Notes under the pieces: model-generated
Told to the model about the DNA's origin: nothing
Database searches by the model: none
Seen by the model: the letters and a program-made list of their open reading frames with translations, nothing else
Program-made: the position numbers and the translations under genes
From: Bacteroidales bacterium
GTDB lineage: Bacteria > Bacteroidota > Bacteroidia > Bacteroidales > JAHJDW01
DNA length: 46,795 nucleotides
Reading direction: 5' to 3'
Assembly: GCA_029004185.1 (NCBI GenBank)
Contig: JAQUPB010000005.1
Coordinates: 1 to 46,795 of the forward strand
Shown: piece after piece, positions 28,185-35,494 of the stretch
Position numbering within the stretch: the first letter of the stretch is position 1
How the letters are laid out: the number at the start of each line of letters is the position of its first letter

Positions 28185-30509
28185 TTAAACATAATTAGTT
28201 CTTCCTCTCAGTCCGAAATATTTTTTCAGTGGTTTTGACACGGGCTTGAGTTTTTCGAGTATCATGAGCTCATATTTGTAATGTATTTTTGCATACGAAG
28301 GAAAATCGGTATGTTGTTTTATAGGCGTATTCATTATCTTTTCGAATTCCTCATCAGTCAGGTCGAACTTTTTAATGATGTATTTTTTATCTTCTGAAAT
28401 TTCATCTTCAATATAAGGAGGCTTTTTCATTTCGGCAAGTGCGTTTTCCCTTGTCGTTTGCCCTGAGCATATTAAAGTTGACAAATGTGCTTTCCTTTTA
28501 TCGATATTGAATTTTTTAGGTAAAATATACGACTGATAAAACTTCGTAAAAAGTGATTCGTTATGTTTGCCGCCGTAATCACGCCATCCGAGTTCATTTG
28601 TAACAATGGTCTTGGATTCATCTTTATTATAATTCACATAATTTAAAATGGGGAAAGTTCTTATACCAAGTAGGTTTATATAAGCGGCTTTTCTGAAATA
28701 CCCCATTTGCGGAAAAGTTGAAATTCTTTCTTTTCCATAACAGCTGTGAATGGATGTTATATTGAGCAAATCACTTTTCCAGTGCACCCAGTTCATGGGC
28801 ATGATTCCTTCTGTGGCGAAATTATGCCCGGTAATTATATAATCAACTTTATGTTTGGCTGCCAGCAAGTACAATGAAGCAACTATAGCATAGTCGGTAA
28901 CGAGCTCAATATCCACTACCGATGCTTTAAGGAATGAAAGTTGTATATCTTTAAATTCCTCCCAGTTAATAACCCATGTATGCAAATCAAATCCAAGTTT
29001 ACTTACAACGTATTCTATATTGCTCATTGCAAGTTCGGAATTCCATCCGTTGTCGAGGTGAACCAGCAAAGGCCGTAATCCGTATTGCTTTGCCAGATAA
29101 GCCGTATAAGTGCTATCAACACCTCCGCTTACACCAAGTATGGAATCATATTTTTTATTTTTGCCTTTATCTTTAATTTTCTTTATTATTTCGAGCATTT
29201 GTTTTTTGCCCAAGCTGTCACGGTGTATGATTTCTTTTGAGAATCTTTCGTACATTTTGCAGTAACTGCAAACACCGTCTTCATCAAATGTAATATCAGG
29301 ATCATCGTTTGTATCCATTATGCAATGACTGCACATTTGATATTGACGGACTGCATGAACGGACAATGTTTTCCTGTAAATTTCGTAAATTAATTTTCCG
29401 ACAACTTCAGGGTAAAATAAATTCCGGGCTTTGATTGAAATATCCTCCAGGTCATATTTGTCAATGTTCTCAATTGTCCTGCAAATGTTTTTCGAAAATG
29501 CTTCAACATCGCGCGGCGCCGACATCAGACCATTTGTTTCATTAATCAATTCCACAACGCCGTTGACGCTGTTGCTAACAACCGGACGGCCGCAGCAAAA
29601 ACTTTCAATAATGATGCAGGGAAGATTTTCGGCATTTGAAGGGTGAACAAGAAAATCGGCTTCCTGAAGATAATCTGCTATTTCCTTTTTTGTCCTTTTG
29701 CCAAGAAATTCTATTTTGATATCAAAATCGTTTTTTTTCAGATATTCCTGTACTTCTTCAACATATTTTCCTATCCCGACAAATTTTACTTCAATTCTTT
29801 TCCTGTAATTTTCGGGCAATAGCTTATAAGCATCAAAAAACAAAACAGGATTTTTCGGACCATCCCAAACGGCGGCCATCAGAATCCTGATTTTATCGTC
29901 TCTTTTGTTCCTTGGAGAGTACTTGAATACTTCGTTTGCTACATTCGGAATCGGAATAATTTTATCTTTGTCAACGTGGTATTCATTTACAAGAACGCTT
30001 CCAAGTTGCTTTGAAACCGGCATTACATACTTTATTTCGGTTTTTTTAAACCATTCCCGTATTTCATTTTTTTCCTGAATTATCTGCTTTTCGGGCAGGT
30101 TATATATTCCTGTATGATAAAATGAACTGTGTTCGGTAACTACAAAAGGAATTCCTTTAAGCTGTTTCAGTTCGAACATGTCTTTTGTGGTGTTGGTATG
30201 AACGTTAAGGTGGCAAATGTCGATGCGGGCGGTATTTTTTATTTTCGCAATTAAAATATTATATGCAAGTTTTATTGATTTCTCGTAAATGCCGAATCTT
30301 CGCAAGGGGCAATAAATTATGGCATTATAAACAGTTAAGTTGCGTTTTTCTTCTTTTACGATTTTTATGCTGAAAGGAAAATGCTTCCAGCTTTTTCTGA
30401 AATCAACCCTTACATCAAAAACATTGGAATATAATGCAGCGGCTTCTGCATGCTCACGCATGAAGTTTCCGCATTCAAGCCACCATCCCTCAACAAAGAG
30501 TATGTTCAT
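28185..30509 (-). CDS. Fusion: GT4 glycosyltransferase + N-acetyl-sugar amidotransferase (WbpG/PseA type)
   Basis: 774 residues. Residues 1 to about 385 form a GT-B glycosyltransferase of family 4, with the EX7E motif at E294/E302 (NAENLPCIIIE) and GRPVV after it. Residues about 388-774 are a PP-loop ATPase of the N-acetyl sugar amidotransferase family (TIGR03573). They begin with RQYQMCSHCIMDT, carry two CxxC pairs (C393/C396 and C414/C417), and have the PP-loop SGGVDS at 461-466. GHNFATEG and GWRDYGGKHNESLFTKFYQ follow. WbpG/PseA-type enzymes amidate acetamido sugars and usually need HisH/HisF-like partners to supply ammonia. None is nearby. Both halves look intact and in one frame. Its product is presumably a surface glycan. 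Confidence 0.9.
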   Translation of the reverse strand: MNILFVEGWWLECGNFMREHAEAAALYSNVFDVRVDFRKSWKHFPFSIKIVKEEKRNLTVYNAIIYCPLRRFGIYEKSIKLAYNILIAKIKNTARIDICHLNVHTNTTKDMFELKQLKGIPFVVTEHSSFYHTGIYNLPEKQIIQEKNEIREWFKKTEIKYVMPVSKQLGSVLVNEYHVDKDKIIPIPNVANEVFKYSPRNKRDDKIRILMAAVWDGPKNPVLFFDAYKLLPENYRKRIEVKFVGIGKYVEEVQEYLKKNDFDIKIEFLGKRTKKEIADYLQEADFLVHPSNAENLPCIIIESFCCGRPVVSNSVNGVVELINETNGLMSAPRDVEAFSKNICRTIENIDKYDLEDISIKARNLFYPEVVGKLIYEIYRKTLSVHAVRQYQMCSHCIMDTNDDPDITFDEDGVCSYCKMYERFSKEIIHRDSLGKKQMLEIIKKIKDKGKNKKYDSILGVSGGVDSTYTAYLAKQYGLRPLLVHLDNGWNSELAMSNIEYVVSKLGFDLHTWVINWEEFKDIQLSFLKASVVDIELVTDYAIVASLYLLAAKHKVDYIITGHNFATEGIMPMNWVHWKSDLLNITSIHSCYGKERISTFPQMGYFRKAAYINLLGIRTFPILNYVNYNKDESKTIVTNELGWRDYGGKHNESLFTKFYQSYILPKKFNIDKRKAHLSTLICSGQTTRENALAEMKKPPYIEDEISEDKKYIIKKFDLTDEEFEKIMNTPIKQHTDFPSYAKIHYKYELMILEKLKPVSKPLKKYFGLRGRTNYV

Positions 30510-30686: not shown

Positions 30687-31121
30687 TTAATTAAAGATGT
30701 GCAGTATCGTGCCGCTCAGAGAATTATTGTATTCTTTCAATGGAGCAGTAGCAGGTTTCTGGTTTACCGAACCATCTGTTAAAATAAATTTTGAACCGCA
30801 GCAACTGTCAACGGCAATTATTCCGGATGATTCAACAGTAACCCTGCAACTGCCTGAAGGTTTGTAAGTACACGTTCTGTCATATGCCTTGAATTCGTCA
30901 ATAGATCTTCTGTAAACAATAATTCCGTTTTGGTATGCTCCGCAATTACCTAAATATACCCATCCCCCAATATTATTAAGAACTGAAAAATCAACCGAAT
31001 TCAAATCTATAACCACATCAACAGATACATTCGGAACTGTATTGTCTTTTTTGCAGTTTGTTGAAAACAATATAAAAATCAGGGTTATTAAAACAATTCT
31101 GAAAAATTGAAATGATCGCAT
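30687..31121 (-). CDS. Small lipoprotein with a Rieske-like domain lacking standard ligands
   Basis: 144 residues with a lipoprotein-like signal (hydrophobic 8-20, Cys23). The rest resembles the Rieske fold: residues 67-80 (IIVYRRSIDEFKAY), then DRTCTYKPSGSC, then AVDSCCGSKFILTDG and PLKEYNN. In a true Rieske protein the two ligand motifs are C-x-H and C-x-x-H. Here they read C84-T-Y86 and D105-S-C-C108, so both His and one Cys are replaced. Four Cys remain near the site (84, 92, 107, 108). The family match is from memory of similar Bacteroidota proteins, and metal binding is unproven. It is divergent from the PurF-like gene. Confidence 0.7.
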   Translation of the reverse strand: MRSFQFFRIVLITLIFILFSTNCKKDNTVPNVSVDVVIDLNSVDFSVLNNIGGWVYLGNCGAYQNGIIVYRRSIDEFKAYDRTCTYKPSGSCRVTVESSGIIAVDSCCGSKFILTDGSVNQKPATAPLKEYNNSLSGTILHIFN

Positions 31122-31143
31122 TGATAAAATGTTTTCTATTTCC

Positions 31144-31151
31144 CAAAATTA
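31144..31151 (-). promoter_or_regulatory. Promoter -7 element of the Rieske-like lipoprotein gene
   Basis: On the minus strand it reads TAATTTTG, an exact TAnnTTTG, 22 nt upstream of the ATG at 31121. Confidence 0.55.
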
Positions 31152-31196
31152 AGAAAAATTCCAAGATATACGGATGTGTTTTATTTATAATTTCAT

Positions 31197-31204
31197 TAAC
31201 TTTG
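31197..31204 (+). promoter_or_regulatory. Promoter -7 element of the PurF-family gene
   Basis: TAACTTTG matches TAnnTTTG exactly and lies 21 nt before the ATG at 31226. It fixes that start codon, because an upstream in-frame ATG at 31112 would precede the promoter. Confidence 0.65.
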
Positions 31205-31225
31205 CAACGTACTTCAGAAATAAAC

Positions 31226-33127
31226 ATGAGTGAGCAGATAAAACATGAATGCGGCATAGCCTTAGTAAGACTGCTGAAACCGCTTGAATATTATCAGAAA
31301 AAATACGAAACTGCTCTTTACGGTTTGAACAAAATGTATCTCCTTATGGAAAAGCAGCACAACAGAGGCCAGGATGGCGCCGGTGTTGCCTGCATAAAAT
31401 TCGACGCTGAGCCGGGGAGCGAATACATTAACCGCCTTCGTTCAAATTCTTCTTCTTCCATTAAAGAAATTTTTGATAAAATATATTCCGGTTTTGAACA
31501 GGTAAAGAACGAGTCGCCTGAATTATTGAGTAATGTAAACTGGCTTAAAAAAAATGTTCCTTTTACAGCCGAACTTTACCTTGGTCACCTTCGATACGGA
31601 ACATTCGGAAAGAACAGCATCAAATATTGTCATCCTTTGCTGAGGCAGAACAACTGGATAACCCGAAACCTTGTCATTGCAGGAAATTTCAACCTTACAA
31701 ATGTTGATGAACTTTTTGATATTCTTGTTCAGAAAGGACAGCACCCTTTTGAAAAATCAGATACAACTACAATACTTGAGAAAATTGGTCATTTCCTTGA
31801 TAAGGAAGTTGAAAAAACATTCAGAAAACACAAAGACAAAGGACTTGACAATATTACAATCACAAAGAAAGTTTCTGAAAATCTTGATATTTTAAACGTT
31901 TTAAAAGAATCGTGCAAGAAATGGGATGGAGGATATGTAATCGCTGGAATGCTTGGACATGGTGATGCGTTTGTTGTCCGCGACCCTTCAGGCATCCGCC
32001 CTGCATTTTATTATCATGACGATGAAGTTGTGGTTGTAACTTCGGAACGACCCGCAATACAAACTGCATTTGATGTTCATTTTAAAAATGTAAAAGAATT
32101 AAATCCCGGAAATGCTTTAATTATTAAAAAAGACGGGCGTATAATAAAACAAGTATATAAAGAGCCCACTGAAAGAAAAGGATGTTCATTTGAACGCATA
32201 TATTTTTCGAGAGGTACGGATGCACATGTTTATCAGGAAAGAAAAATGCTTGGCAAGTTGCTGAGCAGATATGTTCTTAAAGCTATTAATAATGATCTCG
32301 AAAATACCGTATTTTCATTTATTCCCAATACCGCCGAAGTGGCTTTTTATGGCCTGGTTGAGGGTATTGAAGATTTTTGTAATGAAATAAAAAAAGAAGA
32401 AATTCTAAAAGCAGGAAACAATTTAACGAAAAACAAACTTAATGAATTGCTGAAAATTCATCCGAGAGTTGAGAAGATTGCAGTGAAAGATGTTAAACTG
32501 AGAACTTTTATAACACAGGATAGTCAGCGCGAAGATCTTGTCGCCCACGTTTATGATGTTACATACGGAATAGTACGCGACCATATTGATACGCTTGTTG
32601 TTATTGATGATTCAATTGTTCGCGGTACAACATTAAAACAAAGTATCATAAGGATTCTTGACAGGCTGAACCCAAAAAAAATAATTATTGTTTCATCGGC
32701 TCCGCAAATCCGCTATCCTGATTGTTACGGAATTGATATGGCTAAACTCGGCGATTTCGTTGCTTTCCAGGCTGCAATTATGCTGCTTAAAGAAAGAAAT
32801 CAGGAAAAAATAATTGATGAAGTTTATAAAAAAGCAAAATCACAGGAGAAATTTCCGAAAGAGAAAATAAAAAATGCTGTAAAACAAATTTATGAACCGT
32901 TTACTGCTGAAGAAATTTCACAAAAAATTACAGAAATAGTAAAACCCGAAAATCTGAAAGCCGAATTGCAGATTATTTACCAGTCTATAGAAAATTTGCA
33001 TCTGGCTTCACCCAACAATCAGGGCGACTGGTATTTTACGGGTGAGTATCCTACACCCGGCGGTAATAAAGTTGTAAACCGTTCTTTTATAAATTATATT
33101 GAAGGTAGAAATGAAAGAGCGTATTAA
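31226..33127 (+). CDS. Amidophosphoribosyltransferase-family protein (PurF-like, long form)
   Basis: 633 residues from ATG 31226. PurF makes phosphoribosylamine from PRPP and glutamine, the first step of purine synthesis. The N-terminal HECGI places C9 as the Ntn-hydrolase nucleophile, exposed after removal of a short propeptide. RGQDGAGVACIK and YLGHLRYGTFG are glutaminase marks. The PRPP loop is VVIDDSIVRGTTLKQS. It is about 130-150 residues longer than E. coli PurF, with inserts and a helical C-terminus. Bacteroidota commonly carry this long paralogue besides ordinary PurF. Its in vivo role is less certain, so no symbol is given. Confidence 0.88.
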   Translation: MSEQIKHECGIALVRLLKPLEYYQKKYETALYGLNKMYLLMEKQHNRGQDGAGVACIKFDAEPGSEYINRLRSNSSSSIKEIFDKIYSGFEQVKNESPELLSNVNWLKKNVPFTAELYLGHLRYGTFGKNSIKYCHPLLRQNNWITRNLVIAGNFNLTNVDELFDILVQKGQHPFEKSDTTTILEKIGHFLDKEVEKTFRKHKDKGLDNITITKKVSENLDILNVLKESCKKWDGGYVIAGMLGHGDAFVVRDPSGIRPAFYYHDDEVVVVTSERPAIQTAFDVHFKNVKELNPGNALIIKKDGRIIKQVYKEPTERKGCSFERIYFSRGTDAHVYQERKMLGKLLSRYVLKAINNDLENTVFSFIPNTAEVAFYGLVEGIEDFCNEIKKEEILKAGNNLTKNKLNELLKIHPRVEKIAVKDVKLRTFITQDSQREDLVAHVYDVTYGIVRDHIDTLVVIDDSIVRGTTLKQSIIRILDRLNPKKIIIVSSAPQIRYPDCYGIDMAKLGDFVAFQAAIMLLKERNQEKIIDEVYKKAKSQEKFPKEKIKNAVKQIYEPFTAEEISQKITEIVKPENLKAELQIIYQSIENLHLASPNNQGDWYFTGEYPTPGGNKVVNRSFINYIEGRNERAY

Positions 33128-34942: not shown

Positions 34943-35494
34943 ATGAATAAACTTAAATCAGGCAAATTAATTGCAACAGTTCTTATTATTTTTTCGGGTA
35001 TTGTTTTCAGCAGTTTTCTCAATTACCCGTCAACCGATAAACCCAAAACAGGAACCGAAATAGGTAACATGGCGCCCGAGTTAAAATTTGCAGGAGTCGA
35101 CGGAAAAATATTATCTCTTTATTCATTAAAGGGAAAAATAGTACTGGTCGATTTCTGGGCATCGTGGTGCAGACCTTGTCGTATGGAAAATCCCTCTTTA
35201 GTTGAAGCATACAACAAATACAAAGGCAAGAAATATAAAAACGCCAAAGGTTTTGAAATATTCAGCGTTTCACTTGACCAGGATAAAAATGCATGGATTG
35301 CAACTATTAAAAGTGATGGACTTGTTTGGCAGTATCATGTTAGCGATTTAAAAGGCTGGTATTCCGAAGCAGCAAGAATTTATGGGGTAGGCTCAATTCC
35401 TATGAATTTCCTTCTAAATGAAAAAGGAATAATTATTGCAAAAGGCTTGCGCGGCGGGGCTTTGGAATATGAACTAAGCAAACTTGTTAAATAA
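34943..35494 (+). CDS. TlpA-like periplasmic thioredoxin-fold protein
   Basis: 183 residues: signal peptide or anchor (about 1-27), then a thioredoxin domain with DFWASWCRPCRMENP, active-site C76 and C79. GSIPMNFLLNEKGIIIAKGLRG contains the cis-Pro loop. Such proteins reduce or isomerise disulfides, or serve cytochrome maturation. The partner cannot be named. It has its own promoter, and the stop is followed within 2 nt by a heptamer repeat. Confidence 0.9.
   Translation: MNKLKSGKLIATVLIIFSGIVFSSFLNYPSTDKPKTGTEIGNMAPELKFAGVDGKILSLYSLKGKIVLVDFWASWCRPCRMENPSLVEAYNKYKGKKYKNAKGFEIFSVSLDQDKNAWIATIKSDGLVWQYHVSDLKGWYSEAARIYGVGSIPMNFLLNEKGIIIAKGLRGGALEYELSKLVK

Follow-up and report, generated by a model that had tools for sequence, protein, structure and literature searches.

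The window, by which we mean the whole 46,795-nucleotide stretch analysed here, carries on its reverse strand, between positions 30687 and 31121, a gene for a lipoprotein of 144 amino acids. The product consists of a signal peptide with the lipobox STNC (31053–31121, reverse strand) and a single domain carrying C60, C84, C92, C107 and C108. By the lipobox rule, C23 is the predicted lipid-anchored cysteine; it is present in 155 of the 156 aligned family rows, which agrees with the initial annotation, where the product had been called a lipoprotein. The residues C84, Y86, C92, D105, C107 and C108 are also found in the reading frame exactly as they had been described there. A fifth mature cysteine, C60 (30942–30944, reverse strand), was absent from that description. 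It lies in an insertion that is rare among relatives: in its alignment column, 145 of the 156 show a gap and only the protein of this window has a cysteine.

On the same strand, positions 28185–30509 hold an apparent fusion of 774 amino acids, the first part of which matches group 1 glycosyltransferases and the second part of which (CSHCIMDTNDDPDI...) resembles an N-acetyl sugar amidotransferase in its sequence. On the forward strand, an open reading frame of 671 amino acids (31112–33127) gave a weak glutamine amidotransferase match. The ATG listed for this frame and the start of the lipoprotein gene overlap; an inner ATG near 31226 looks likelier and would leave about 100 bases between the two divergent genes. 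A few genes away, at 34943–35494 (forward strand), lies a thioredoxin-like protein with a CRPC motif. Among 170 loci of the family, the commonest neighbour clusters were S-adenosylhomocysteine hydrolase (53), an outer-membrane-receptor-like protein (42), a two-component sensor (26), GreA (22) and HIT (16), counts that are rough, as many loci span just 1.5 kb per side and some overlap. The names come from Pfam searches with one representative each, and the outer-membrane-receptor-like protein was read from its sequence. No operon partner was found in the 170 loci, and the commonest neighbours almost always lie on the opposite strand. The lipoprotein gene seems to stand alone, and we read its neighbours as synteny, not as function.

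That the reading frame is a real gene and not a chance one follows from its homologues, from profile matches across the order and from low dN/dS. Homologues were obtained at E ≤ 1e-3 in 49 of the 60 genomes searched, its own counted, and a family profile of 57 rows matched 341 of the 393 genomes of the order at E ≤ 1e-6, with two matches in 13 of the 341. Values of dN/dS ranged from 0 to 0.29 across ten close pairs of relatives, dS being saturated in two of them. As the profile also matches canonical Rieske proteins, we read 30 matches from its weakest end individually (27 judged weaker than the strongest canonical match, plus three others; the remainder of the 341 was partly read) and found 28 family members, one protein cut by the contig end (L248) and one canonical Rieske protein (L234, genome G330). 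The residue counts given below refer, unless stated otherwise, to a set of 156 rows, obtained from 171 matches that were reduced to 157 by removing C-terminus duplicates, after which the canonical Rieske protein L056 was excluded. This set includes the incomplete L006 and L034 and, being drawn from the better-scoring matches, under-represents diverged members. The column aligned with the chain end (residue 144) is unusually conserved, with Asn in 145 of the 156 members, the 28 diverged rows standing outside this count. In the order, the lipoprotein appears to be very common, usually present as a single match and uncharacterised, and dN/dS was low in all ten pairs compared. Our search of the open PMC literature found no paper on a family of Rieske-fold lipoproteins devoid of the ligands; the papers that came up seemed, from their titles and the opening of their abstracts, to be unrelated.

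The initial annotation had recognized a Rieske fold in this protein, and the predicted structure confirms it, together with structure comparison and a match between the family profile and PDB sequences. The AlphaFold2 model, computed from the 57-row alignment, reached a pLDDT of 93.1 and a pTM of 0.80. When it was compared with the PDB using Foldseek, the best rows were Rieske proteins, with a probability of 1.00 and E values of about 1e-4; the model aligns with PetC3 (5cxm) with a Z of 12.2 and 2.5 Å over 98 residues, and with kuste4569 (9rk4) with a Z of 11.7. Moreover, the model of a diverged member with three cysteines, L057, computed from a separate 23-row alignment, has the same fold (Z of 11.5 to PetC3). 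The family profile found 5cxm among PDB sequences at 1.5e-6, and a family profile built without L056 matched this canonical protein at 5.8e-14. Pfam Rieske matches were obtained at E ≤ 1 for 20 of the 57 family members, and one relative, L028, lies above the PF00355 cut-off (25.4 vs. 20.3 bits). Searched alone, the 144-residue sequence gave nothing significant in Pfam, with PF00355 and PF13806 unlisted at E ≤ 10, and nothing significant among PDB sequences, while its best NCBIfam match stood at 0.077. The lipoprotein shares with the Rieske proteins of PF00355 (PetC3, 5cxm; kuste4569, 9rk4; AioB, 1g8j) the domain fold, a proline loop of the form GPA..PL..Y, a Ser and a Phe/Tyr close to the cluster site and a cysteine pair at the disulfide positions, but it differs from them in a longer loop 1, in the absence of both His ligands and in an Asp in place of the second Cys ligand. 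It does not differ from the canonical L056 in its lipid anchor, since L056 also seems to have a lipobox. No PF00355 match was found in the lipoprotein's own genome at E ≤ 0.01.

Aligned with L056, the canonical CTHAGC ... CPCHGS becomes CTYKPSGSC ... DSCCGS, so that instead of the ligand set C-x-H ... C-x-x-H the lipoprotein has C-T-Y ... D-S-C-C. C84 (30870–30872, reverse strand, as are all codons given here) is the former cluster cysteine of loop 1, Y86 (30864–30866) occupies the position of the first His ligand, D105 (30807–30809) that of the second Cys ligand and C108 (30798–30800) that of the second His. Position 86 is Tyr in 99 of the 156 members, His in 23, Phe in 18, Asn in 6 and another residue in 10, and position 105 is Asp in 94, Cys in 58 and another residue in 4. 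At position 108, His was found in none of 187 altered relatives, a set defined as not having both His. The loss of the cluster site that had been proposed for this protein is thus borne out: both His ligands are gone, and the whole family is altered there. The same proposal had counted C92 (30846–30848) and C107 (30801–30803) as remnants of the cluster site, which proved wrong. Usual Rieske proteins carry a loop disulfide between two cysteines, as described in passages of PMC3758308 and PMC12954380, and C92 and C107 hold the loop-1 and loop-2 positions of this pair, a feature common but not universal in Rieske proteins. Because they stand at these positions and, as judged from the alignment and the tree, are mostly gained and lost jointly, they are not cluster remnants. 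Also retained near the site are S110 (144 of 156) and F/Y112 (156 of 156), whose positions tune the cluster in Rieske proteins according to a portion of PMC12954380. We can say much more safely that the lipoprotein is no ordinary Rieske electron carrier than how its site is used at present.

The four cysteines, whose conservation the initial annotation had proposed as a check, fall into two co-varying pairs. C84 and C108 are broadly conserved (148 and 147 of the 156), but a cysteine in the region of C92 was found in 98 and C107 in 87. C84 and C108 are both present in 147 members and both absent from 8, C84 occurs alone in one and C108 alone in none; the sole exception, L008, has C105 and D108. 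The C92-region cysteine and C107 agree in 141 of 156 (both in 85, neither in 56), with 13 + 2 discordant members. Fisher p values for these cysteine counts ignore relatedness. On a tree built without the columns in question, the fewest changes required were 4 for C84, 5 for C108, 31 for C92, 30 for C107 and 20 for position 105; both trees used in this work comprise few columns (117) and contain many open forks. Supported independent pairs agree for 84 and 108 in 3 of 3 cases, too few for significance; for 92 and 107 the mean agreement is 6.1 out of 7, with a median p of 0.03. Position 105 goes with other differences as well: the number of mature cysteines is even in 76 of the 94 members with D105 and odd in 45 of the 58 with C105, and position 106 is Ser or Thr in 81 of the former and Pro in 34 of the latter. 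D105 is kept in all 8 members that lack both C84 and C108. The family seems able to persist without this pair, as the mature part of L163 has no cysteine and five proteins from outside the order (L171, L173, L175, L176 and L181) carry Ser in place of both C84 and C108. With Cys at position 105 in 58 of the 156 and two CxxC pairs in some distant members, the site has several forms.

To place the family in a wider frame, a search of the phylum at 1e-6 gave a match in 82 of 198 genomes, its own counted. Reading 49 further sequences revealed 31 altered ones and 18 that keep both His positions, and the 206 sequences combined comprise 19 with both His positions (18 with the full ligand set) and the 187 without. 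Two tree changes separate the His-keeping from the altered state among these 206. In the 187, the residues at 84, 105 and 108 are C,D,C in 90, C,C,C in 57 and C,C,D/E in 14, and D105 is kept without Cys at 84 and 108 in 14; rarer combinations are A,C,D (3), D,C,D/E (2), D,S,D (1) and others (6). The position of the acid therefore differs between groups, being 105 in one and 108 in another. The 28 diverged members read from the weak end of the profile have C,C,C in 27 cases, C,C,D in one and D105 in none. C107 is absent from all of them, and a loop cysteine is present in 13. At the former cluster site, 11 of the 28 have the arrangement CxxC...CxxC (positions 84, 87, 105 and 108) and 2 more CxxxC...CxxC, and 16 of the 28 have Glu at 87. 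Among the other 156, CxxC...CxxC was found in L048 only and CxxxC...CxxC in L059 only. For this diverged branch, a metal site is the likelier reading of the cysteine arrangement.

For the protein of the window, we lean tentatively, at close to an even chance, toward a cluster-free, redox-silent Rieske domain whose loops are pinned by two putative disulfides. It would be a lipid-anchored envelope protein whose only domain, of Rieske fold, has given up the Rieske [2Fe-2S] cluster. C92-C107 would be the inherited loop disulfide and C84-C108 a new, second one across the emptied cavity, which would tie loops 1 and 2 together where the cluster used to sit. The Asp-105 form would act as a rigid module of the cell envelope, redox-silent and with a binding or structural role. 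The even cysteine number in D105 members is what would be expected if the cysteines were paired. The arsenite oxidase of NT-26, naturally without the usual Rieske disulfide, lacks both cysteines together, as noted in a section of PMC3758308. Against the disulfides count the odd cysteine number of C105 members, which leaves one thiol unpaired, the five mature cysteines of the protein itself, odd in number with C60 as the extra one, the 15 of 156 members that break the C92/C107 rule, and five sequences outside the order that have C105 without C84. Joint loss of C84 and C108 would also be expected if both were metal ligands. The absence of C107 from all 28 diverged members, 13 of them with a loop cysteine, also counts against the disulfides. 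The CxxC...CxxC arrangement in 11 of the 28 suggests metal in that branch; this, together with the absence of D105 from all 28, lowers the disulfide reading and raises its metal-binding rival. This rival, a real possibility that we nevertheless hold to be on the doubtful side, is a mononuclear site (e.g., for zinc, iron or copper) formed by CxxC...CxxC in distant members and by Cys2Asp (84, 105, 108) here, with C92-C107 still a disulfide. Asp and Cys both bind metals and their codons differ at two bases, and position 105 is one or the other in 152 of 156 members and, on the tree, changed state at least 20 times. The distribution of acids between 105 and 108, the four-cysteine arrangements (3 members with CxxxC...CxxC besides the 12 with CxxC...CxxC) and the unpaired thiol of most C105 members also fit such a site. 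However, the retention of D105 where C84 and C108 are lost argues for a role independent of both, and its association with Ser/Thr106, and of C105 with Pro106, would fit a loop cap. There is no constant fourth ligand, given the variety at position 86; an acid at 87 is found in 61 of 94 D105 and 34 of 58 C105 members (p of 0.49), and the protein of the window has Lys there. When two four-cysteine members were searched against Pfam, zinc-ribbon and zinc-finger models matched weakly, below the cut-off.

We consider it very unlikely that a [2Fe-2S] cluster is still bound through a different set of ligands, such as three or four Cys. The four-cysteine members could accommodate one, 9 of the 58 C105 members have H86, and S110 and F/Y112 are retained throughout most or all of the family, but S110 and F/Y112 may be structural, many members have Phe or some other residue unable to act as a ligand at position 86, and the protein of the window offers two Cys and one Asp. 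Equally little credence is given to a redox-active thiol-disulfide centre of the CPxC type, with C84 as third cysteine, which would make the protein an oxidoreductase or a sensor. It would be suited by the odd cysteine number of the C105 members, 34 of 58 of which have CP at 105-106, but position 105 is Asp in most of the family, the protein of the window included. Moreover, the residue at 105 does not track oxygen respiration: the haem-copper oxidase gene COX1 was found in 27 of 56 C105 and 50 of 84 D105 genomes (p of 0.23), a comparison from which 12 named loci were excluded, as were the 4 rows that have neither Cys nor Asp at 105. No COX1 match was found in the lipoprotein's own genome. For the family as a whole, it is plausible, if rather short of probable, that this widespread Bacteroidia lipoprotein rebuilt the Rieske cavity into a zinc-ribbon-like four-cysteine site in one branch, while other branches came to have a Cys3 site, a Cys2Asp site or simply a disulfide. 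If so, one fold would show a path leading from an iron-sulfur carrier either to another metal site or to the loss of any metal.

The Rieske cluster subdomain resembles folds of the zinc-ribbon and rubredoxin type, and the 11 diverged members have the same four-cysteine spacing as these, whereas the protein of the window lacks two of the four Cys (K87, D105). A fold famous for electron transfer is here detached from its cofactor, and the cysteine patterns predict either two disulfides or a metal. The family is one of Rieske-fold lipoproteins that have lost the cluster ligands, although Pfam still assigns some of them to Rieske, and calling its members Rieske [2Fe-2S] proteins, as the Pfam match of L028 would have it, would mislead. 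Regarding its place in the envelope, a surface-lipoprotein rule given in part of PMC12578637 calls for two or more acidic residues among the six positions that follow the lipid-bearing Cys. The six residues after C23 are KKDNTV, with one acidic residue, and 97 of 155 family rows have at least two, the family alone being counted; judging from its sequence, surface exposure of this copy is possible but not supported. The same portion of PMC12578637 names the BAM complex subunits BamG-K, and the family profile listed no chain of that name at E ≤ 1 among PDB sequences, a set that may lack those structures.

A Rieske-fold subunit without cluster ligands is known in NirD (Rieske_2, PF13806, TIGR02378), a cytoplasmic enzyme subunit, from which the family differs in that its members are lipoproteins and have a distinct arrangement of cysteines. 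Profile matches to NirD/Rieske_2 were weak, in 12 of 57 family members at E ≤ 1, and L028 stays below the PF13806 cut-off (25.3 vs. 27). TIGR02378 matched 4 of 23 family members at E ≤ 0.01, the best at 1.2e-4, and the nitrite reductase small subunit 4aiv appears at rank 27 in the Foldseek list of the lipoprotein model.
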